Source of the DNA: an uncultured Lentisphaerota bacterium
Lineage (GTDB): Bacteria; Verrucomicrobiota; Lentisphaeria; Victivallales; UBA1829
NCBI GenBank assembly: GCA_900320095.1
Contig: ONQZ01000003.1
Coordinates: forward strand, 1 to 64,000
Reading direction: 5' to 3'
DNA length: 64,000 nt
Below the pieces are notes generated by a model. It was not told the DNA's origin. It ran no database searches and saw only the letters and a program-made list of their open reading frames with translations. Made by a program: the position numbers and the translations under genes. Within the stretch, counting starts at the first letter, position 1, and every line of letters starts with the position of its first letter. Of the stretch, positions 8,052 through 62,970 are shown one piece after another.

Positions 8052-8164
8052 TATAAGAATAACGTAACCGGTCGGATACAGATGGCCGGTTATTTTGAAG
8101 CGGAATTATGCCACTTGAAATGCTCGAAAAACCATGTATTGTAAGGAATGGAGGTGGTGCAAAA

Positions 8165-9532
8165 ATGAGCATACGAAACAAAAACGGAATATGGTACTAC
8201 GAATTCATGGCCGAGGGCAAACGGTACTCCGGAACGTGTCTTGATAAGACCGGGGCACCGACCGGAAACGAACGGGTTGCTCAGGCGTATGAGCGAGCAA
8301 AACGAGAGGAGCTCGGGAGTGTCCGCGCAAACAAGTCGTTGAAGGCGCTGGTGGAGAACTACCGCGAGGAGCTGACAGGGTCAAGGGCTATCCCCCTTCG
8401 CGAAGCATACGAGCGTTCCCTTGGAAAGCCCCGGAAGCGCATTCCCGGAGTGGCACGGCAGGCGTTGAAGGCCGCTCACTGGCAGAATTTTCTGGCGTAT
8501 ATGGAGGACGTCTACCCTGAGGTTACTCACCTCGCAGCGGTCTCCCGGCATCATGCGGAAAACTTCGTGGCGAACCTCAGCCTTTACGGGAAATATACGC
8601 CCCGCAAGCCTGGGAAGCGTCGAGAGGCGCATCCTCTTTCCGGCGCGACCATCACGGACCATATCACAACGATCACGGAGGTCTTCTCGTTGCTTGCCGA
8701 TGATGCCGGACTCGTGGGCAATCCGTTCGCCAATATTCCCAAGCCGTCCCTGCAGACCGAGACTCGACAGCCGTTCACGCTTGAAGAGCTGAAGACGATC
8801 AAAGAGAACCTCGACGATTTCACCCGACCGCTGTTCACCATCGCGATTGCCACAGCTCTGCGCGAGGGGGACATCTGCACGCTGAAGTGGAGCGAGATCG
8901 ACCTGACGAACCTCGTCATCCGTAGAGGAAAAATGCGCAAGACGCAAGTCGGCGTGGATATTCCGATCATGCCGCCGTTGGCCGTCTACCTCGAAGAGCT
9001 TTTGGAAAAACGGACGGACAGCGGCGAGTATGCCCAATACGTACTGCCGCTTCATGCTGAAATGTATCTGCATAACCGCAGCGGCGTTTCCTACCGCATC
9101 AAGACTTTTCTGGAAGAGAAGTGCCACATCGTCACCCTAAGCAAGCCCGCAGGCCGTGATCGTGCCGTCTCGGTCAAGGACCTTCACAGCTGTCGTCATA
9201 CGTTCTGTTACTATGCTGGGCTGTACGGAATCCCGATGAACATCGTTCAGGGGATCGTCGGCCACATGACGCCGGAGATGACCAAGCTCTACAGCAATCA
9301 TGCCAGTCTGGAGGCCAAGCGCGAAAAGATGCAGCTTCTGCCCGACTTCCTGAATCTCGCTGATGGAACGAATCCGCATACAATCGGAAACTGCTCGCAG
9401 GACCCGGAAATCCATGATCTCCTGAAACAGCTGCCTCATCAGTATGCCGAAGAGATCAAGCAGATTCTGGAAATCATGATCAAATCCGGTCCGCGAACGG
9501 TCATTGAGCTTCGCCGCCAGCTGACGGGGTGA
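8165..9532 (+). CDS. Tyrosine recombinase/integrase
   Basis: The 455-residue protein integrates and excises DNA through a covalent tyrosine intermediate. The catalytic set is visible: Arg in ATALREGDICTLKW, H-x-x-R in LHSCRHTF, then GHMTPEMTKLYSNH giving the second His and the nucleophile Tyr. An N-terminal arm-binding part (SIRNKNGIWYYEFMAEGKRY) and a SAM-like core-binding domain precede the catalytic domain. I chose ATG 8165 because GGAGGTGG lies upstream; an earlier in-frame ATG at 8108 has no such site. It is the probable integrase of the region that ends in the tRNA-Val fragment at 12995-13044, though that site is 3.5 kb away. Confidence 0.92.
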   Translation: MSIRNKNGIWYYEFMAEGKRYSGTCLDKTGAPTGNERVAQAYERAKREELGSVRANKSLKALVENYREELTGSRAIPLREAYERSLGKPRKRIPGVARQALKAAHWQNFLAYMEDVYPEVTHLAAVSRHHAENFVANLSLYGKYTPRKPGKRREAHPLSGATITDHITTITEVFSLLADDAGLVGNPFANIPKPSLQTETRQPFTLEELKTIKENLDDFTRPLFTIAIATALREGDICTLKWSEIDLTNLVIRRGKMRKTQVGVDIPIMPPLAVYLEELLEKRTDSGEYAQYVLPLHAEMYLHNRSGVSYRIKTFLEEKCHIVTLSKPAGRDRAVSVKDLHSCRHTFCYYAGLYGIPMNIVQGIVGHMTPEMTKLYSNHASLEAKREKMQLLPDFLNLADGTNPHTIGNCSQDPEIHDLLKQLPHQYAEEIKQILEIMIKSGPRTVIELRRQLTG

Positions 9533-24250: not shown

Positions 24251-25168
24251 TCAGCGGCGGCGTCCTTCGTGCGCTTCCTTTCTGGACTTGCATTCCAGGC
24301 AGAAACGCGCATACGGTTTGACCTCAAGACGGGCGGGGCTGATCTCCTGGCCGCATTCGATGCAGATGCCGTATTCGTTCTCGTCGAGACGGGTCAGCGC
24401 TTCGTCGATCATTTCGATCACGGTGCCCTCGTCGGAGAGGAGTCCCAGCTCGAAATCGTGCTGGAAATTGTCGCTGCCGAGATCGGCCATGTGCGTCGCC
24501 ATGCCCGCGCCGGGACCGGACTTTCTGTTGGTCAGGGCGTCGTCGCGATGGATGTTCAGCTGGTCCTGATACGATTCTCTCAGCTTCAGCAGCATCTCTC
24601 TATAATGCTTTTTCATCTTCGTCGAGAGGTAGGACTTTTTGATGACGTGTCCGTTGGCTTCCGCCTGATTCTGGAACGCCTTGAGCTCGGCCTTCGTGAT
24701 GATGCGGCCGTGATGGGACGCCTGAGCATCTTTGTTCTTGTCGATTTTCTTTTTGGCGGAAACCGCCTGAACGGCGGCTTTCTTCGCCGGAGCGGCCTTC
24801 TTCACCGGAGCGGCCTTAGCAACAGTCTTCGCCGGAGCCTTCTTGGCAGGCGCGGCCTTCTTCGCCGGGGCAGTCTTCTTCGCGGCAACCGCCTTGACCG
24901 GAGCTTTCTTCGCCGGTGCGGCCTTCTTCGCGGCAACCGCCTTGACCGGAGCTTTCTTCGCCGGAGCGGCCTTCTTCGCGGCAACCGCCTTAACCGGAGC
25001 CTTCTTCGCCGGGGCGGCTTTCTTCGCGGCAACCGCCTTGACCGGAGCCTTCTTTGCCGGAACAGCCTTCTTGGCGGGCGCGGCCTTGACAGCGGCCTTC
25101 TTCGCAACGGTTTTGACAGCCGGCTTGGAGGCCGGTGATTTGGCCTTCTTTGTTTCGTTCTTTTTCAT
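24251..25168 (-). CDS. DksA/TraR-type zinc-finger protein with histone-like N-terminal repeats
   Basis: The 305-residue protein is a fusion of two parts. Residues 1 to about 130 are almost only K, A, P and V, with several copies of a 15-residue unit built on KKAPVKAVAAKKAAPA, as in histone H1-like proteins. The C-terminal half is a DksA/TraR domain: a coiled-coil with MADLGSDNFQHDFE at the tip, then a C4 zinc finger (CIECGQEI ... FCLECKSRK). DksA binds the RNA polymerase secondary channel and tunes rRNA and stringent-response promoters. The basic tail would add strong, sequence-independent nucleic-acid binding. DNA repeats in the gene make length variation likely. Confidence 0.9.
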   Translation of the reverse strand: MKKNETKKAKSPASKPAVKTVAKKAAVKAAPAKKAVPAKKAPVKAVAAKKAAPAKKAPVKAVAAKKAAPAKKAPVKAVAAKKAAPAKKAPVKAVAAKKTAPAKKAAPAKKAPAKTVAKAAPVKKAAPAKKAAVQAVSAKKKIDKNKDAQASHHGRIITKAELKAFQNQAEANGHVIKKSYLSTKMKKHYREMLLKLRESYQDQLNIHRDDALTNRKSGPGAGMATHMADLGSDNFQHDFELGLLSDEGTVIEMIDEALTRLDENEYGICIECGQEISPARLEVKPYARFCLECKSRKEAHEGRRR

Positions 25169-25444: not shown

Positions 25445-26320
25445 ATGATTGACCTTCACATGCACAGCACCTGTTCCGACGGTACCCTGACGCCGGAGGA
25501 GCTTGTCGCCGCCACCCTGAATATGGGGCTGGAAGCCGCCGCCCTGACCGACCACGACACGGTTTCGGGCGCGGAACGGTTCCTGTCCGCCGCGTCCGGG
25601 ACGCCGCTTCATGCCGTGCCAGGCGTCGAGCTTGCGAGCATGCTGTTCAACAAGGACATCCACATCGTGGGGCTGTTCCTCGACCCCGGCTGTCCCGCTT
25701 TGCTGTCCGCGCTGGAGCAGATGCGTCTGTGGCGCGAGGAGCGCAACGCGGAAATGGTGGAGAAGATCCGGTCGAAGGGATACGAGATCACGATGGACGA
25801 AGTGCTGGCCGAGGCTGGCGGCGAAAGCGTCGGGCGTCCGCACATGGCGTCCGTCCTGCTCAGAAAAGGCTATTTTCAGGATATGCAGAGCGTGTTCGGG
25901 CGGCTGATCGGCCGCAACGGCTCCTGCTTCGTCCTCCGCAAATACTACCCCGTCGATGTCTGCATCCGGCTGATCCACGAGGCGGGCGGCCTGGCGATCT
26001 GGGCGCATCCGCTTCATGCCGCGCACGGAGCGAGGGCGGCCCTCCGCAGGATCGGCTCGCGGCTGATCTCCTACGGCCTCGACGGCCTCGAATGCTACTA
26101 CTCGATGTTCGCCGAACAGCAGCAGGCCGACGCGCTGAAATTCGCCCGCGCCCGTTCGCTGCTCGTCTCCGGCGGAAGCGATTTCCACGGGGCGTCCCAT
26201 CCCCAGGTCAAATTGGGCTCCGGGATCGACGGCAACCTCGCGATCCCGTTCGAGATTTACGAACGGCTCCTCGCCGCAAAGCAGAACAGGGTTTCCCATG
26301 ACAACGAAAAAACATGTTGA
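25445..26320 (+). CDS. PHP-domain phosphoesterase (RNase AM/TrpH type)
   Basis: The 291-residue protein has the four PHP metal motifs: DLHMHSTCSDGT, LTDHDTVSG, the PGVELAS motif, then IWAHP and GGSDFHG. The arrangement fits the RNase AM (3',5'-nucleoside bisphosphate phosphatase/5'-3' exonuclease) group rather than DNA polymerase PHP domains. I chose ATG 25445 because the domain begins there and GGAG lies upstream. It overlaps trmB by 23 bp, so the two form an operon with an RNA-metabolism theme. Confidence 0.9.
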   Translation: MIDLHMHSTCSDGTLTPEELVAATLNMGLEAAALTDHDTVSGAERFLSAASGTPLHAVPGVELASMLFNKDIHIVGLFLDPGCPALLSALEQMRLWREERNAEMVEKIRSKGYEITMDEVLAEAGGESVGRPHMASVLLRKGYFQDMQSVFGRLIGRNGSCFVLRKYYPVDVCIRLIHEAGGLAIWAHPLHAAHGARAALRRIGSRLISYGLDGLECYYSMFAEQQQADALKFARARSLLVSGGSDFHGASHPQVKLGSGIDGNLAIPFEIYERLLAAKQNRVSHDNEKTC

Positions 26321-26906
26321 CGGCATCGTGATGCTCCATAACCTGTACACCCGGCTGGAAAACGTGGTCCCCATGCCGGAACCCGGAATGCGCGCCGAAC
26401 TTGACCTCGGATGCGGCGATGGCGAGTATGCACTGGCGCTGGCGGCACGCCGTCCCGACGTGTACGTGATCGCGGCGGACATGCTGCTCGGCCGCGTGCG
26501 GAAGGTCCGGAAACGCGTCCTGCGGGACGGCTTGGCGAATCTGCATGTGCTGAAAAGCGAGTCGCGCGTGCTGATCTCCCGGACGATCCCGGACGCGTTC
26601 CTCGACCGCGTGAACCTGCTCTGCCCGGACCCGTGGCCGAAAGCGAAACACCGCTGCCACCGCCTCATCACCTCGGACATCATGATGCAGTTCGCACGCA
26701 TCCTGAAGCCGGACGGCGTGTTCCATTTCTCCACGGACAACGCGGAGTATCTGGAAATCGCGGACCGGACCGTCGCGGAGTCGGGGCTTTTTGCGCCGTC
26801 CGACCTCGCGCTCATCGCCGACGTCGCGGACATCAAGACCGGATTCGAACTCCTTTGGGAGTCCGAAGGCAAGACCGTGACGCACCGCGCCTGGCGCAAG
26901 CTCTGA
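26298..26906 (+). CDS. trmB: tRNA (guanine-N7-)-methyltransferase
   Basis: TrmB methylates G46 of the tRNA variable loop using S-adenosylmethionine. The 202-residue protein has the SAM motif ELDLGCGDGEYALALA and the TrmB signature LCPDPWPKAKHRCHRL, which holds the tRNA-binding and catalytic residues, followed by FHFSTDN. The start overlaps the end of the PHP gene. Confidence 0.93.
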   Translation: MTTKKHVDGIVMLHNLYTRLENVVPMPEPGMRAELDLGCGDGEYALALAARRPDVYVIAADMLLGRVRKVRKRVLRDGLANLHVLKSESRVLISRTIPDAFLDRVNLLCPDPWPKAKHRCHRLITSDIMMQFARILKPDGVFHFSTDNAEYLEIADRTVAESGLFAPSDLALIADVADIKTGFELLWESEGKTVTHRAWRKL

Positions 26907-27020
26907 ACCTGGAGCTGGTCACGCTGAGCGACAGACCATTCTCGGAGCGTTCCATATCAATCTGCCATGTTAAGGTGAAACTGGTTTTCAGGATACCCCC
27001 TTATCAGGATACCCCTCTCT

Positions 27021-27435
27021 CAAGTTTCAGTTAAAAGGAACTTGTTTTAACTGAAACTTGCGCGTATGCGCGGGAGGGGGCTGTGTCTGGCATATTGCGA
27101 AACCGTGACCGCCGGAGAGACTGTATTCAACAAAGGAACTAACCGAGGTTAAATGAGATGCATGAAAAGAGGCAGTGCTCTTTTGGGAAATCACCCCATC
27201 AAGTTTCAGTTAAAAGGAACTTGTTTTAACTGAAACTTGCGCGCATGCGCGGGAGGAGGCTGTTTATGGCGCTTTGTGCCCCCGGACCTTCAGACGGGAT
27301 CGCATTCAGAGATGAGAAGAAACGAGGTCCAATGAAGCGAAATTTGAAGAGTCAGATCCTTTCCTGAGTCAATAACAGTCAAGTTTCTGTCAAAAGGAAC
27401 TTGTTTTGACAAAAACTTGCGCGTATGCGCGGGAG
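27021..27435. repeat. Hairpin array A: three palindromic units about 180 bp apart
   Basis: Hairpins lie at 27021-27060, 27200-27239 and 27380-27419. Each has a 16-bp stem (CAAGTTTCAGTTAAAA with its complement) and the 8-nt loop GGAACTTG. Each is followed by a GC-only palindrome such as CGCGCATGCGCG and GGGAG. The start-to-start distance is 179 and 180 bp. Between the first two units the spacers also align weakly (GGCTGT, ATTCA, CGAGGT, AATGA in register), so the whole 180-bp unit is repeated. The third hairpin carries paired changes (TCAAAA against TTTTGA), which keep the stem. No gene is recognised in 26907-27734; the part from 27436 on is unique sequence ending in a promoter. Confidence 0.85.
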
Positions 27436-27679: not shown

Positions 27680-27734
27680 GCTTTATAAACTATACGCTTT
27701 TAACTGAAACTCATTCTATCAGGAGACAAATCTC

Positions 27735-28121
27735 ATGAAAAAGTCCCTCAAGCTCGCCGTCCTTTCCGCCTGCGCCGTCCTCGGCGCCCTCTCCGCCACC
27801 TCCTGCGCCACGCCGTTCCCGCTCGGATGCCTCTACACCGACGTCGTTCTGCCCGGCCCCCTCGGCGACGGCAACCTGAGCCAGTCCTATAACCGCCGCG
27901 GTTCCTCCTCCTGCTACAGCATCCTCGGCTGGGTGGCGGGCGGCGACGCCTCCATCAACGAAGCCGCAGTCAACGGCGGCATCGACAAGATCGGCTGGAC
28001 GAACATCCACGTGACGAACTACTTCGGCATCTACGGCATCTACAAGACCGAAGTCTTCGGCACCAGCAAGTCCCTCGGTCCCGACCAGACCCTCGCTCCG
28101 GCCAAAAGCGCCCAGAAGTAA
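27735..28121 (+). CDS. TRL-like family lipoprotein
   Basis: The 128-residue protein has a lipoprotein signal peptide with lipobox ATSC at about residues 21-24. The rest matches the TRL-like family: GCLYTDVVLP, a central SSSCYSILGWVAGGDASI, then EAAVNGGIDKIGWTNIHV. The family is small, exported and of unknown function. AGGAGA lies before the start. It is transcribed alone, downstream of hairpin array A. Confidence 0.8.
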   Translation: MKKSLKLAVLSACAVLGALSATSCATPFPLGCLYTDVVLPGPLGDGNLSQSYNRRGSSSCYSILGWVAGGDASINEAAVNGGIDKIGWTNIHVTNYFGIYGIYKTEVFGTSKSLGPDQTLAPAKSAQK

Positions 28122-33102: not shown

Positions 33103-33414
33103 ATGTTCATCATGAACGATGAAAAGACCCCGGCCGCGAAGTCCGGGGCATCGGTACGCGTCGCCGCGGCTCCGGCGGAATGCACGCTGGCGGAACTCCC
33201 CGTCGGCAGGTCGGCCGTTGTGATCTATATGAAGCCTTCCCTGCGCGGGAAGAAGAAATTCGCGGACGTCGGGATCGTGCCCGGCACCCTGCTCGAAATG
33301 GAAGCCCACGCCCCGTTCGGCGGCCTCCTCCGCATCAAGGTCATGGAGAGCAGCCTGTCCATCCACCGCGACGATGCCGCGAACATCATCATCCGCATGC
33401 AGGAGCGCCCATGA
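33103..33414 (+). CDS. feoA: Ferrous iron transport protein FeoA
   Basis: The 103-residue protein is the SH3-like partner of FeoB. ADVGIVPGTLLEMEAHAPFGG and the final SLSIHRDDAANIIIR match the family core. About 30 residues precede the domain, including a low-complexity start. The stop codon overlaps the feoB start (ATGA), indicating translational coupling. Confidence 0.92.
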   Translation: MFIMNDEKTPAAKSGASVRVAAAPAECTLAELPVGRSAVVIYMKPSLRGKKKFADVGIVPGTLLEMEAHAPFGGLLRIKVMESSLSIHRDDAANIIIRMQERP

Positions 33415-35579
33415 GCCGCAAATACCGGATCGTCCTCGCCGGAAATCCGAACTGCGGCAAAACCACGATCTTCAACTGCCTCACCGGCGCGCGCCAGCAC
33501 GTCGGCAACTACCCCGGCGTGACGGTCGAGAGCAAGACCGGAAAATTCATGCTCGGCGAGGACGAGATCGAGATCATCGACATCCCCGGCGTGTACAGCC
33601 TGTCCTCCAGCTCGCCCGAAGAGGGCGTCGCATTCGAAGAGCTGACCAAACCCGGGATCGACCTCATCATGAACGTGATCGATTCGTCGATCCCGCAGCG
33701 CAGCCTGTACCTCTCCACGCAGCTCGCCGAGCTCCATATCCCGATGCTGATCGTCTTCAACATGAGCGACGAGGCGAAAAAGAAGGGGCTCAACTTCAAT
33801 ATCCAGAAGCTCCAGTCCTATTTCGGATGCAGCATCGTCCAGACGGTCGGCTCCCGCGGCGACGGCATCGACAAGCTCAAAAACGCCCTTGCGGAAAGCC
33901 TCCTGCATCTGGAGGATCACGACGTCCCGAAGCTCACCTACGGCGCGGACGTCGACGACGCCATCCGCGAGATCGTGGAGTGGATCGAACCCGCCATGAC
34001 CGACCGCGTCCGCCACATCCCCGCGCGGTTCTTCGCCATCAAGCTGCTGGAGAAGGACTCCTGCGTGATGCGGCTTCCCGATTTCCAGAATCTCGATGCC
34101 ATCATCGACGCCCAGATCACGCACCTCTACGCCCGGCACGCCATCACCGCCGAGACCTTCATGGCGGACTGCCGTTACGCCATGATCTCCGGCGCATGCC
34201 GCGACGCCATCTCCTTCACGCAGGAACGCCGCCGCGAGATATCCGACAAGATCGACGCCGTGGTCACGAACCAGTGGGTCGGGCTTCCGCTCTTCTTCGC
34301 CATCATGTACCTTATGTTCTGGTTCACGTTCACCTGCGCCGCGCCCATGACCGACGGCATCGAATGGCTGTTCGGCTGGATCCAGAGCCTCATCGAACGC
34401 TTCTGGTCGCCGGATTTCCAGCCCGTCCTGCGCAGCCTCCTGATCGACGGCGTGATCCACGGCGTCGGCGGCGTGATCGTCTTCCTCCCGAACATCCTGT
34501 TCCTCTTCCTCGCCATCGCGTTTCTGGAGGACACCGGCTACATGGCGCGCGCGGCGTTCGTGATGGACGGCATCATGCGCAAGTTCGATTTGCAGGGCAA
34601 GAGCTTCGTGCCGCTCGTGCTCGGGTTCGGCTGCAACGTCCCCGCGATCATGGCGACGCGCAGCATCGAGTCCGAACGCGACCGCCGGACCACGATCCTC
34701 GTCCTGCCGCTGATGAGCTGCGGCGCGCGCCTGCCGATCTACGCCCTGCTGATCCCGGCGTTCTTCGCGGTCAAATACCAGGCGTTCGTCATGTTCCTGA
34801 TCTACGCGATCGGCGTCGCCTTCGCGATGCTCGCCGCCCGCCTGCTCAAATCTACACTGTTCAAGGGCGACGGCGAAGTCTACCTGATGGAGCTCCCGCC
34901 CTACCGCGTCCCGACCGCGAAAAGCATCCTCCTGCACATGTGGGACCGCGGCGTGATGTACCTGCAGAAAGCCGGCACGATCATCCTCGGCGTCTCCGTG
35001 CTGCTCTTCATCGCGAACAATTATCCCGAGAAGAAGACGTTCGACGTCGACTACGGTGCGCAGATCATGGCTGTCGCCGCAAATACATCCCTCACTCCGG
35101 AGGAACAGGCCGATGCCTTCAAACACATCGAAAGACTGCGCCACGCCGAAGCCGCCGAATACACCGTTTCCGGACGCGTCGGAAAGTTCCTCGAACCCGC
35201 GTTCCGCCCCATCGGCTTCGACTGGCGCGTCACGACCGCCGCGATCAGCGCGCTCGCCGCGAAGGAGATCTTCGTCTCCCAGCTCGGCATCCTGTACGCC
35301 GAGGACACCGAATCCGCCGGAGACGGGGAGGACGAACAGGAACCGCTCCGCCAGCAGCTCCGCCGTGCCTACACGCCCCTGCAGGGATTCTGCATGATGC
35401 TCTTCTGTCTGCTCTCCATCCCGTGCCTCGCCACGCTCGCGATCATCCGCCGCGAACTGAACTCGTGGAAATGGATGTTCTTCGAGGCCGCCGGACTCTT
35501 CGTCCTGGCGTACGTGACCACGTTCATCGTGTACCAGCTCGGACTGCTCCTGAAGATCGGGACGAACTACCTGCTCTGA
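33411..35579 (+). CDS. feoB: Ferrous iron transporter FeoB
   Basis: The 722-residue protein pairs an N-terminal GTPase domain with a polytopic Fe(II) permease. G1 is GNPNCGKTTIFN at residues 11-22, G3 is DIPGVYSLSS, and G4 is FNMSDEAKKKG, where FNMS-D replaces the usual N-x-x-D spacing. The membrane part has the two Gate motifs, with GFGCNVPAIMATR and MSCGARLPIYALL intact. The protein imports ferrous iron under anoxic conditions, which suits a gut or sediment bacterium. Confidence 0.96.
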   Translation: MSRKYRIVLAGNPNCGKTTIFNCLTGARQHVGNYPGVTVESKTGKFMLGEDEIEIIDIPGVYSLSSSSPEEGVAFEELTKPGIDLIMNVIDSSIPQRSLYLSTQLAELHIPMLIVFNMSDEAKKKGLNFNIQKLQSYFGCSIVQTVGSRGDGIDKLKNALAESLLHLEDHDVPKLTYGADVDDAIREIVEWIEPAMTDRVRHIPARFFAIKLLEKDSCVMRLPDFQNLDAIIDAQITHLYARHAITAETFMADCRYAMISGACRDAISFTQERRREISDKIDAVVTNQWVGLPLFFAIMYLMFWFTFTCAAPMTDGIEWLFGWIQSLIERFWSPDFQPVLRSLLIDGVIHGVGGVIVFLPNILFLFLAIAFLEDTGYMARAAFVMDGIMRKFDLQGKSFVPLVLGFGCNVPAIMATRSIESERDRRTTILVLPLMSCGARLPIYALLIPAFFAVKYQAFVMFLIYAIGVAFAMLAARLLKSTLFKGDGEVYLMELPPYRVPTAKSILLHMWDRGVMYLQKAGTIILGVSVLLFIANNYPEKKTFDVDYGAQIMAVAANTSLTPEEQADAFKHIERLRHAEAAEYTVSGRVGKFLEPAFRPIGFDWRVTTAAISALAAKEIFVSQLGILYAEDTESAGDGEDEQEPLRQQLRRAYTPLQGFCMMLFCLLSIPCLATLAIIRRELNSWKWMFFEAAGLFVLAYVTTFIVYQLGLLLKIGTNYLL

Positions 35580-35645: not shown

Positions 35646-36070
35646 CAAGTTTCAGTTAAAAGGAACTTGTTTTAACTGAAACTTGCGCGGATAGCGCGAG
35701 TATGCGCACGTGCGCGAGAACGGATGTCCTGAACGGGGATGGAAGCGATCTGCAAAGACCTGGAAAACGGAGAATAGTCCGAGATCAACAGCAAAAAACA
35801 GCCAATCACTGAAGTAAACAGCCGGAAAATCTCCAAGTTTCAGTTAAAAGGAACTTGTTTTACTGAAACTTGCGCGGATAGCGCGTGAATGGTCTTTTTT
35901 TGGGGGTGCCGTTTTCAGACCGCCGTGAAAACCAGTTTGATTTCGGGCCGAACAAAGGGATTGAAGAAGCACAGGCAATGCGCGACAAGAAGAACAGCCG
36001 GAACCCCCCAAGTTTCAGTTAAAAGGAACTTGTTTTAACTGAAACTTGCGCGGATAGCGCGAGTATGCGT
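35646..36070. repeat. Hairpin array B: three palindromic units 175-188 bp apart
   Basis: Hairpins at 35646-35685, 35834-35872 and 36009-36048 use the same 16-bp stem and GGAACTTG loop as array A. The middle copy lacks one A in the right arm. All three are preceded by AACAGCCGGAA and followed by CGCGGATAGCGCG, so this array has its own flank variant. Between 35580 and 36311 I see no gene; the right part holds only the promoter of the DUF2339 gene. Confidence 0.85.
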
Positions 36071-36311: not shown

Positions 36312-38981
36312 ATGCCTGTTCTTATCTTTTTTGGGGCACTTCTCCTGATCTTCATTGTCGGGATTCTTCCGATCGTCAATCTGGTCCTTCTGTCCTCCTG
36401 CAAATCAAAACTTGAGGACCTCATGCGCCGGATCATGGAACTGGAAAAGGCGGCAAAGACCGGACAGGCCGCACCTCCGCCGAAGCAGCCGGAGGTCAAA
36501 ATCCAGGTCCCCGGCACGACGGAATCCAAACCGGTCCCCGGATTCCTGCTGTCAAATCAGACCGCGGCGAATCCGCCTCAAAAACAGGCGGAGATCAAGC
36601 CGGAAGTCAAGCCGGAAGCCCCTGCCCTGTCCGTTGTCAAACCGGAAGTCAAACCCATGCCTGTTCATGTGGAGCCCCCGGCGCAGGCGCCTTCGCCAAT
36701 CAAGCCGGAACCGCCGAAACAGGTCCAGCCGGAGATCAAACCAGCCGCCGCTGCTGCGAATACATCCGAAACATTCGATACCAAGTCCCTGCTCAATGTT
36801 CCGAAAGAGAGCAGTGCCTGGATGGCGGGAACAAAACCGGCCGGCGCATCGCATTTCGCTCCGCAAGGTTCCGCCATCGAGGAACGCACGGCCGAGGTGC
36901 TGTCGAAGCTGTGGCAGTGGCTGATTGTCGGGGAGGAATACCGCAGGGGCGGCATGCCGAAGGAATACGCGATCGCGACGACCTGGATGCTCCGCGCCGC
37001 GATGCTGCTTCTGATCTTCGGTCTGGCGTACTTCATCAAGTACACGCACGACCGCAATCTGCTCCCGCCGGAACTCCGTCTCTCCGTCGCCGCGCTGTTC
37101 ACGATGGCGCTGCTCGGCGTCGGATGCCGCCTGCTGAAGGGCGCGAAGTACCGGATCTTCGGGACAGCGCTCGCCGGAGCCGGGTTCACGGGGCTGTACC
37201 TGTGCGTGTTTGCGAGCGTGTCGGTGTACCATCTGCTGAGTCCGCTTGCCGGACTCGCCGGGCTGGTCGTCGTGACGGCGGCGGGCGTCGCGCTCGCGTT
37301 GCGGTTCAATTCGATCCTGCTTGCCGTGCTCGCGGTCTGCGGCGGCTATCTGGCGCCGGTCCTGATGGATACCGGGTCGCGCAACCTCGCCGGGCTGTAC
37401 GGCTACATGCTGATCCTGGTCATCGGTTCGCTCGTCGTGGCGCGGATGCGTTCGTGGCAGCCGGTGAACATCCTGTCGTTCCTCTTCACCTGGGGCATCT
37501 ACGCCGCTTCGGATCCGTTCCCGAGGGGCGGCGGGGTCAACGTCCCCCTGACCGCTTCGCCGAACTGGCTTGAGCTCGCGGGCGATGTAAATCGCGGCTA
37601 TGCGATAGCCCTGATCGCCGGAACGCTGTTCTTCCTGGCGTTCTGCGTGCAGACCGTGGCGTTCAACCTGTTCACGAAACGGAAGGTATCGCTGCTGGAG
37701 CTCGAATTCGCCGCGCTGAACGGCATCGTGTTCATGTCGCTGACGATCCGTCCGACGATCTTCCTTTACGGCCGCGAATACGCCGCCGCCATCACGTTCG
37801 GCGGTGCGTTCGTCTACCTGCTCCAGATCGCGCTGCTGATCCGCGTGAAGCTGGAGGACCGCAATCTCCTGCTCACGCTGCTGGTGTTCGCCTGCGGCCT
37901 GATCTCGCTGACGTTCCCGCTGCTGCTGAACCAGGACCACCTCGCCGTGGCGTGGTCGGCGCAGGCGGCGGCGATGCTGTACATCGCATGCCGGACGCGC
38001 TCCGTGATCCTGCTGCGCCTGAGCTACATCGTGTACATGGTCGCCGCGGTGCGCCTGCTCGGATTCGACCTGGCGCGCGGCTACTGGCGCCACAGTGTCA
38101 CGTTCTGGACGCGCCTGCTGAACTTCGGCTCCTACACGGCGGCGCTCGCGGGCGGGTTCTTCCTGCTGAACCGTTACGGCGCGGAGCTGATGCCTGCGTC
38201 CTGGCGGTCCGCGGACGACGGATCCCGGCCCGTTTACTCCCGTTCGTCGAAAGCGATGTTCTGGTGCGCGTTCGGCGTGAGCTTCCTCCTGATCGCGGGC
38301 GAGTTCACGTATCTGCCGCATCTGAAGGTCGGCGGTGTGGTCATGACGGCTGCGCTGTACCTGCTGATCCTGTCGCTGATCCCGAGGCTGTTCCGGGAGA
38401 ACCGAAGGGCCATCATGACGGCGGGCGCTGTCCTGCTCGGCGTGTTTCTGTGGTATGTCATCTTCTCGTGGCAGTCCGGCGGCCAGTCCGTACATGATTC
38501 GCTCTGGCGGTTCTTCCCGAACCTGCTGGCCGTGGCGTCGCTGATCTTCGCCGGGACGTTCTTCGGCGCGTTCGGCGGCGCGGAGGACAATGAACGGTTC
38601 GGCGGCAAGGCCGTCAGCCGGTTCTTCATCCTGAGCGCGTGCATCCTGTGGTTCGTCTACAGCTCGGAGGAAACCTCCTTCCTGGTCGGGCTGTACGGCT
38701 CGCGCGGTGGCGCGAAGATCGCCGTCTCGCTGCTCTGGGGCGCGTACGCGCTCGCGCTCCTCGCGTTCGGCATCCTCCGCAAGAAGAAGATCGTCCGCAT
38801 CCCCGCGCTGGTCCTCTTCGCCGTCACCGTCCTGAAAATATTCTTCCTCGACCTCGTCGGGACGCCCGCGCTGTACCGGATCGCGGGCTGCATGATCACC
38901 GGCGCCGTGCTCGTTGCCGGAGCCTGGCTCTATGTCCGGTTCGCACAGAAAGGAGATCCGTCCGATGAAAACCGTCCGTAA
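36312..38981 (+). CDS. DUF2339-type polytopic membrane protein
   Basis: The 889-residue protein starts with one membrane helix, then a low-complexity P/K/E/V linker to about residue 170, and then some 20 or more hydrophobic helices. The conserved helical segment WLIVGEEYRRGGMPKEYAIA before the first helix of the core and RFNSILLAVLAVCGGYLAPVL agree with DUF2339. Its role is unknown; the family often sits beside a DUF3999 gene, as here. The 3' end overlaps the next gene by 17 bp. Confidence 0.85.
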   Translation: MPVLIFFGALLLIFIVGILPIVNLVLLSSCKSKLEDLMRRIMELEKAAKTGQAAPPPKQPEVKIQVPGTTESKPVPGFLLSNQTAANPPQKQAEIKPEVKPEAPALSVVKPEVKPMPVHVEPPAQAPSPIKPEPPKQVQPEIKPAAAAANTSETFDTKSLLNVPKESSAWMAGTKPAGASHFAPQGSAIEERTAEVLSKLWQWLIVGEEYRRGGMPKEYAIATTWMLRAAMLLLIFGLAYFIKYTHDRNLLPPELRLSVAALFTMALLGVGCRLLKGAKYRIFGTALAGAGFTGLYLCVFASVSVYHLLSPLAGLAGLVVVTAAGVALALRFNSILLAVLAVCGGYLAPVLMDTGSRNLAGLYGYMLILVIGSLVVARMRSWQPVNILSFLFTWGIYAASDPFPRGGGVNVPLTASPNWLELAGDVNRGYAIALIAGTLFFLAFCVQTVAFNLFTKRKVSLLELEFAALNGIVFMSLTIRPTIFLYGREYAAAITFGGAFVYLLQIALLIRVKLEDRNLLLTLLVFACGLISLTFPLLLNQDHLAVAWSAQAAAMLYIACRTRSVILLRLSYIVYMVAAVRLLGFDLARGYWRHSVTFWTRLLNFGSYTAALAGGFFLLNRYGAELMPASWRSADDGSRPVYSRSSKAMFWCAFGVSFLLIAGEFTYLPHLKVGGVVMTAALYLLILSLIPRLFRENRRAIMTAGAVLLGVFLWYVIFSWQSGGQSVHDSLWRFFPNLLAVASLIFAGTFFGAFGGAEDNERFGGKAVSRFFILSACILWFVYSSEETSFLVGLYGSRGGAKIAVSLLWGAYALALLAFGILRKKKIVRIPALVLFAVTVLKIFFLDLVGTPALYRIAGCMITGAVLVAGAWLYVRFAQKGDPSDENRP

Positions 38982-62921: not shown

Positions 62922-62970
62922 AGCTTGATTCGGCAACTTGGCGGGATTTCATTTAGCAACTTGGCAAAAA
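62922..62970 (-). repeat. Dispersed sequence related to 54529-54573
   Basis: This stretch aligns without gaps to 54529-54573. It also contains two internal copies of GCAACTTGGC. See the entry at 54529. Confidence 0.45.

Follow-up and report, generated by a model that had tools for sequence, protein, structure and literature searches.

A tagged palindromic repeat family in a Victivallales genus coincides with rearrangement junctions

Introduction

What are the evenly spaced palindromes that lie between genes of an uncultured Lentisphaerota bacterium, and what keeps them there? The question is raised by a 64,000-nucleotide stretch of DNA (GenBank assembly GCA_900320095.1, contig ONQZ01000003.1, positions 1 to 64,000; Victivallales, UBA1829), here called the window, in which an initial annotation had pointed to a hairpin array between 27,021 and 27,435 (array A). 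Palindromic repeats in bacteria are usually explained by a Y1 transposase. In the present case the array proved to be part of a dispersed family, detected in a single genus, whose copies share a 40-nt palindrome and an adjoining tag. The reading favoured here, at a probability of roughly 0.4, is that of a genus-specific repetitive extragenic palindromic (REP)-like family of protein-bound double-stranded DNA sites that are also crossover points.

Results

Conserved core of the element

A sequence logo of 97 copies placed the conserved part of the element at about 66 nt, from about -9 to +57, in which the 40-nt palindrome is preceded by an A-rich patch (about 60% A from -7 to -5) and followed by the tag CGCGTATGCGCGGGA. 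The palindrome arms approach 2 bits per site, the tag carries CGCG or CGTG in nearly all copies, and information falls to background beyond the core. Many copies are orthologous and hence non-independent. Of 121 copies, 116 have their arms at a distance of 8, and the remaining five have indels within the arms; among 59 distinct palindromes there are 32 sequences of this central spacer, and conservation is 0.94 in the arms as against 0.72 in the spacer. The element therefore has the geometry of a tyrosine-recombinase core site, i.e. inverted arms around a fixed spacer of 6-8 bp. Watson-Crick pairing holds at 97% of arm positions, with both sides changed in 5 of the 16 pairs. Arm mismatches are without strand bias (7 G/T, 6 A/C), a pattern more in keeping with a symmetric DNA site than with an RNA hairpin, in which G-U would be favoured on one strand. 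A Z-DNA reading of the tag was rejected, as variants with a 5-nt loop break the alternation yet keep the CGCG arms, and no clear period was found in the array spacing that would indicate helical phasing.

Within the window, four exact palindrome copies were found compared with none in 100 dinucleotide shuffles, and a chance origin is excluded. The spacing of 179 and 180 bp in array A is borne out by the palindrome coordinates. Of the three palindromes described as perfect in the initial annotation, the first two (A1 and A2) are perfect and identical to one another, whereas the third (A3) keeps the loop but differs by five substitutions and has one C/A mismatch. Each is followed by CGCG-TATG-CGCG-GGGA or a near variant, so that the GC-only palindrome reported there is GC-only in its arms but not in its TATG centre. 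Unit spacers 1 and 2 align in register as claimed (z = 7.4 relative to shuffles; 73% over 150 nt), and array A is aptly described as a tandemly repeated unit of about 180 bp whose most constrained part is the hairpin, the orthologous array of genome G003 also having three copies. It does not extend to the family as a single 180-bp element: only the core is conserved, unit lengths range from 145 to about 250 bp, and the unit spacers of most loci are unrelated to each other. A second array in the window (array B, 35646-36048) lies outside the interval first noted.

Distribution within the genome and the genus

The search of the host genome and its relatives proposed with the initial annotation was carried out on fragmented metagenome-assembled genomes, with part of the gene calls made by a heuristic of codon usage and conservation. 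The host genome (G000; 2.75 Mb) holds 18 copies in eight intergenic loci on four contigs. Synteny with genomes G004 and G005 puts three of these contigs (C29, C41 and C37) one after another, which places 17 of the 18 copies in what would be a segment of about 240 kb; in G011, a single 133-kb contig carries 18 of about 22 copies. The family is thus restricted to one chromosomal domain in the manner of matS. A uniform orientation of the elements on each contig was apparent at first but does not hold across species.

Of 13 genus genomes, 12 gave a covariance-model match to the element; the one without, G007, has a TrmB identity of only 58%. Copy numbers per genome, taken as half of the covariance-model matches, are about 8-22, and 32 of 67 groups consist of a single copy. 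Among further genera of the family and order, those searched with a near-exact pattern gave no match, and a search for an analogous palindrome family in other genera, covering 159 kb from G007 and 195 kb from G014, found none. In GTDB r220, the only assemblies with the exact core are rumen ones of Lentisphaeria/Victivallales; IMG/VR gave no match to this core, which argues against a phage origin.

Inheritance and growth of the arrays

Loci and element orientation are common to several species, with the trmB and yajC loci each found in six, indicating that inheritance is largely vertical. At the trmB locus, which holds array A in the host, there are three copies in G000 and G003, two in G004 and G009, and one in G010 and in G001, where the contig ends just past the copy; the array is missing at this locus in G002, G005, G006, G008, G011 and G012. 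Stem variants are shared within an array, such as CTGTC/GACAG in G003, G004 and G009, and this shows concerted change; at the trmB locus these three genomes share the A3 stem variant of the host. Consecutive unit spacers are often homologous, so arrays grow by tandem duplication. Units are also shared between loci: from one palindrome to the next, the second unit of array A shows homology to a unit upstream of yajC on contig C41 (83% over 176 nt).

In two genomes, oppositely oriented elements stand on either side of two tandem genes for Sel1-like repeat proteins, as named from sequence (G004 C2:124632-128458; G005 C4:28067-31985); the orthologous place in G000 has one Sel1-like gene and elements on one side only. 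An autonomous mobile element was considered for these regions and rejected, the enclosed genes being Sel1-like and not transposases.

Coincidence with rearrangement junctions

Of 27 gene junctions that contain elements, 12 were broken in other species, compared with 41 of 629 without elements (p = 1.5e-7), and the difference persisted among intergenic regions of at least 300 bp (11/25 against 15/116, p = 9e-4); these p values are optimistic, as orthologous junctions were counted once per genome. The clearest rearrangement is reciprocal. In the host, elements lie between Y and Z on C29 (36 kb) and array B lies between feoB and X on C37; in G011 the corresponding orders are Y-[elements]-feoB (55.6 kb) and X-[elements]-Z (124.6 kb). 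On the Y side, homology (C29:35567-36503 and G011 C7:54703-55682) stops within 2 bp of the element ends at 36505 and 55684. The junctions fall in the elements, whose near-identity blocks finer mapping inside the spacer. In a second case, genes that lie beside elements in G004 (C8, at 54 and 78 kb) are joined in G011 (34.9 kb). The elements coincide with crossover points.

Search for an acting enzyme or binding protein

No Y1 transposase (PF01797) was found in the host genome, and only 4 of the 13 genus genomes contain one, three of them as fragments. The host has seven tyrosine recombinases, including one XerD and one XerC-like protein. No co-distributed recombinase was found among those considered: the Xer proteins are universal, and the two larger integrase families tested are patchy, being missing from the element-rich G012 and present in genera that lack the element. 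Three of the seven recombinases were scanned with an integron-integrase model, with XerD and the XerC-like protein falling below its cut-off and the window integrase giving no match. This last protein, a 474-aa tyrosine integrase (8108-9532, plus strand), is patchy in the genus and has homologues of 76-80% identity in G004 (C2 at 202 kb and C8 at 145 kb). A ParB/parS system was also considered, as the arms hold a parS-like GTTTCA...TGAAAC, but was rejected: the host genome has no ParB (PF02195) match and no parS (TGTTTCACGTGAAACA-like) within two mismatches.

Flanking genes and other features of the window

The genes beside the elements, named from sequence, are unrelated housekeeping genes (trmB, feoB, yajC-secD, gyrB and others), and their orientation across 25 loci is mixed (16 tandem, 6 divergent and 3 convergent). 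Together these observations argue against a regulon or a set of terminators, the mixed orientation giving no tie to transcription. Candidate mini open reading frames in the spacers of the trmB array differ between copies and are not kept. Coordinates of the arrays and their surroundings are collected in Table 1.

Table 1. Palindromes, tags, unit spacers and flanking features of arrays A and B in the window
Feature	Position	Strand	Basis
trmB-like gene, immediately upstream of array A; used to anchor the orthologous loci	26298..26906	+	named from sequence
Palindrome A1; 16-bp arms, central spacer GGAACTTG	27021..27060	+	sequence
Tag of A1, CGCGTATGCGCGGGA	27061..27075	+	sequence, logo of 97 copies
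Unit 1 spacer	27076..27199	.	in-register homology to spacer 2 and to the orthologous G003 spacer (80%)
Palindrome A2; same sequence as A1	27200..27239	+	sequence
Tag of A2, CGCGCATGCGCGGGA	27240..27254	+	sequence
Unit 2 spacer	27255..27379	.	unit 27200-27379 83% identical to C41 unit upstream of yajC
Palindrome A3; variant stem CAAGTTTCTGTCAAAA / TTTTGACAAAAACTTG, 15/16 pairs	27380..27419	+	sequence
Tag of A3, CGCGTATGCGCGGGA	27420..27434	+	sequence
CTTTTAACTGAAACT in TRL gene leader; 14 nt identical to palindrome 3' arm	27697..27711	+	sequence
TRL-family protein (PF13146, lipoprotein-like signal), downstream of array A	27735..28121	+	domain match
feoB-like gene, directly upstream of array B; open reading frame as listed, real start probably further downstream	33180..35579	+	named from sequence
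Array B palindrome 1, tag CGCGGATAGCGCG	35646..35685	+	sequence
Array B palindrome 2; 3' arm minus one base	35834..35872	+	sequence
Array B palindrome 3	36009..36048	+	sequence
DUF2339 membrane protein gene, downstream of array B	36312..38981	+	sequence

The arm-like motif CTTTTAACTGAAACT in the TRL leader is present in the array-less G005 as well and decays gradually in more distant species; it is possibly a half-site for the same putative protein as the palindrome. Adjoining array A upstream (26985-27016) are two tandem 16-bp repeats (TTTTCAGGATACCCCC, 88% identical). On the minus strand, 24251-25168 encodes a protein with a DksA/TraR-like C-terminal zinc-finger region, as judged by eye, and a long N-terminal region, rich in Lys, Ala and Pro, that recalls histone H1-like tails and derives from five 48-bp tandem repeats (AAKKAAPAKKAPVKAV, 24855-25105). 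A 47-nt dispersed repeat at 54528-54574 and 62922-62968 (79% identical; ends GGCAACTTGGCAAA or AGCAACTTGGCAAA) is unrelated to the palindrome.

Discussion

The explanation favoured for these observations is that a dimeric, sequence-specific protein, presumably persisting throughout the genus, binds the arms as double-stranded DNA. The bound sites would serve a function in the chromosomal segment to which they are confined, with selection keeping the arms, and recombination between copies would be a by-product, reshuffling units and inverting segments. Several points weigh against this interpretation. The binding protein is a putative one; the conservation of the arms could arise in part from gene conversion between copies; and local spread, not function, could account for the clustering. 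The trmB array is missing from six genomes, and hence no one locus is essential. Further, the segment is unplaced relative to the origin or terminus: DnaA is encoded on contigs other than those with the hairpins, GC skew follows gene strand, and a dif-like scan of the contigs examined gave nothing convincing.

The best-surviving alternative, though itself doubtful, is a selfish or formerly mobile REP-like repeat that has lost its mobilising enzyme, with the present pattern produced by vertical decay and by RecA recombination between 66-bp repeats. A tagged, intergenic, dispersed palindrome found in one genus only would be expected under this explanation, as would units shared between loci, presence and absence at the same locus, and a host genome free of Y1 transposases; CGTC-class REP-like families without a dedicated transposase have been described (PMC3733652). 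However, the copies are few and confined to one segment, and the arms are almost invariant across species and orthologous loci, unlike the prediction from decay.

A more novel possibility, which we regard as rather improbable, is a genus-specific site-specific recombination or chromosome-domain system, in which low-copy lox-shaped sites within one domain are kept by selection and a putative protein pairs or recombines the chromosome. If so, the non-coding units of 145-250 bp would be exchangeable cassettes, and segments of the domain would invert between species. Less likely still is a tyrosine-recombinase site of the lox/FRT/dif kind with the palindrome as its core, the inverted arms enclosing an asymmetric 8-bp crossover region. 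The recombinase would excise, insert and invert units, which would thus act as cassettes, and inverted sites would flip chromosomal segments. The central spacer, fixed in length and variable in sequence, is in keeping with such a site, as are the palindrome-to-palindrome homology of the trmB and yajC units, the reciprocal G000/G011 rearrangement with homology ending at the element edge, and the excess of broken junctions at elements, also after length matching. Against it stand the lack of a co-distributed recombinase, the different central spacers among loci of one genome, and the expectation that an active system would delete direct repeats 180 bp apart.

An element acting at the RNA level, whether as a small RNA, as an mRNA 3' structure or as a bidirectional intrinsic terminator, is very improbable: the upstream A-rich patch does form a T-rich patch past the stem on the opposite strand, one copy scores as terminator-like and five pairs show compensatory changes, but wobble mismatches have no strand preference, loop length is invariant, the window has no Rfam match at gathering thresholds, element orientation is unlinked to genes, with 6 of 25 loci between divergent genes where a terminator is unexpected, and the stem is AT-rich with its T tract displaced by some nucleotides.

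With this family, the maintenance of small palindromic repeats becomes testable in a lineage where the usual answer, a Y1 transposase, is excluded. The family combines the absence of this enzyme from the host with lox-like geometry, a fixed 8-bp spacer, restriction to one segment and rearrangement junctions in several species, and it may point to a new domain-organising or recombination protein in Lentisphaerota.

Comparison with known systems

The initial annotation knew of no described element with this structure. This stands in detail, no description having been found in literature on Lentisphaerae or Victivallales, but REP-like tagged palindromes are obvious relatives. As in REP sequences and bacterial interspersed mosaic elements, a short palindrome outside genes is joined on one side by a tag that is unpaired or weakly paired, and the copies are dispersed, grouped and limited to one genus; the element is REP-like in the wide sense of a dispersed extragenic palindromic repeat. 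REP sequences carry a GTAG or CGTC tetranucleotide at one end (PMC3733652). The tag here is CGCG, the stem is 16 bp rather than the reported 5-13, the arrays run head to tail whereas REPs are predominantly head-to-head dimers, and the few copies lie in one segment without a RAYT transposase. The possibility raised at the outset, a known REP family or insertion sequence end with its transposase, is therefore not what was found; the element is neither a GTAG/CGTC REP nor an Rfam family.

Integron attC sites likewise separate units that run head to tail, but the arms of the element are without the attC motif pair, its units are without open reading frames and occupy many separate loci, and no integron integrase was found among the recombinases scanned. 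The likeness to loxP, FRT and dif sites, and to the dif modules of Acinetobacter, extends to inverted arms, a short asymmetric spacer of fixed length, unit sharing and rearrangement endpoints; the element differs in its gene-less units, its head-to-tail arrays and spacers that vary between loci, and no cognate recombinase was found. The matS sites of Escherichia coli are 13 bp long, with 23 copies in the 800-kb Ter domain (PMC3330122), whereas the element is a 40-nt palindrome with a tag, set in tandem arrays in a domain unplaced relative to the terminus. Both are low-copy, conserved palindromic sites gathered in one chromosomal domain.
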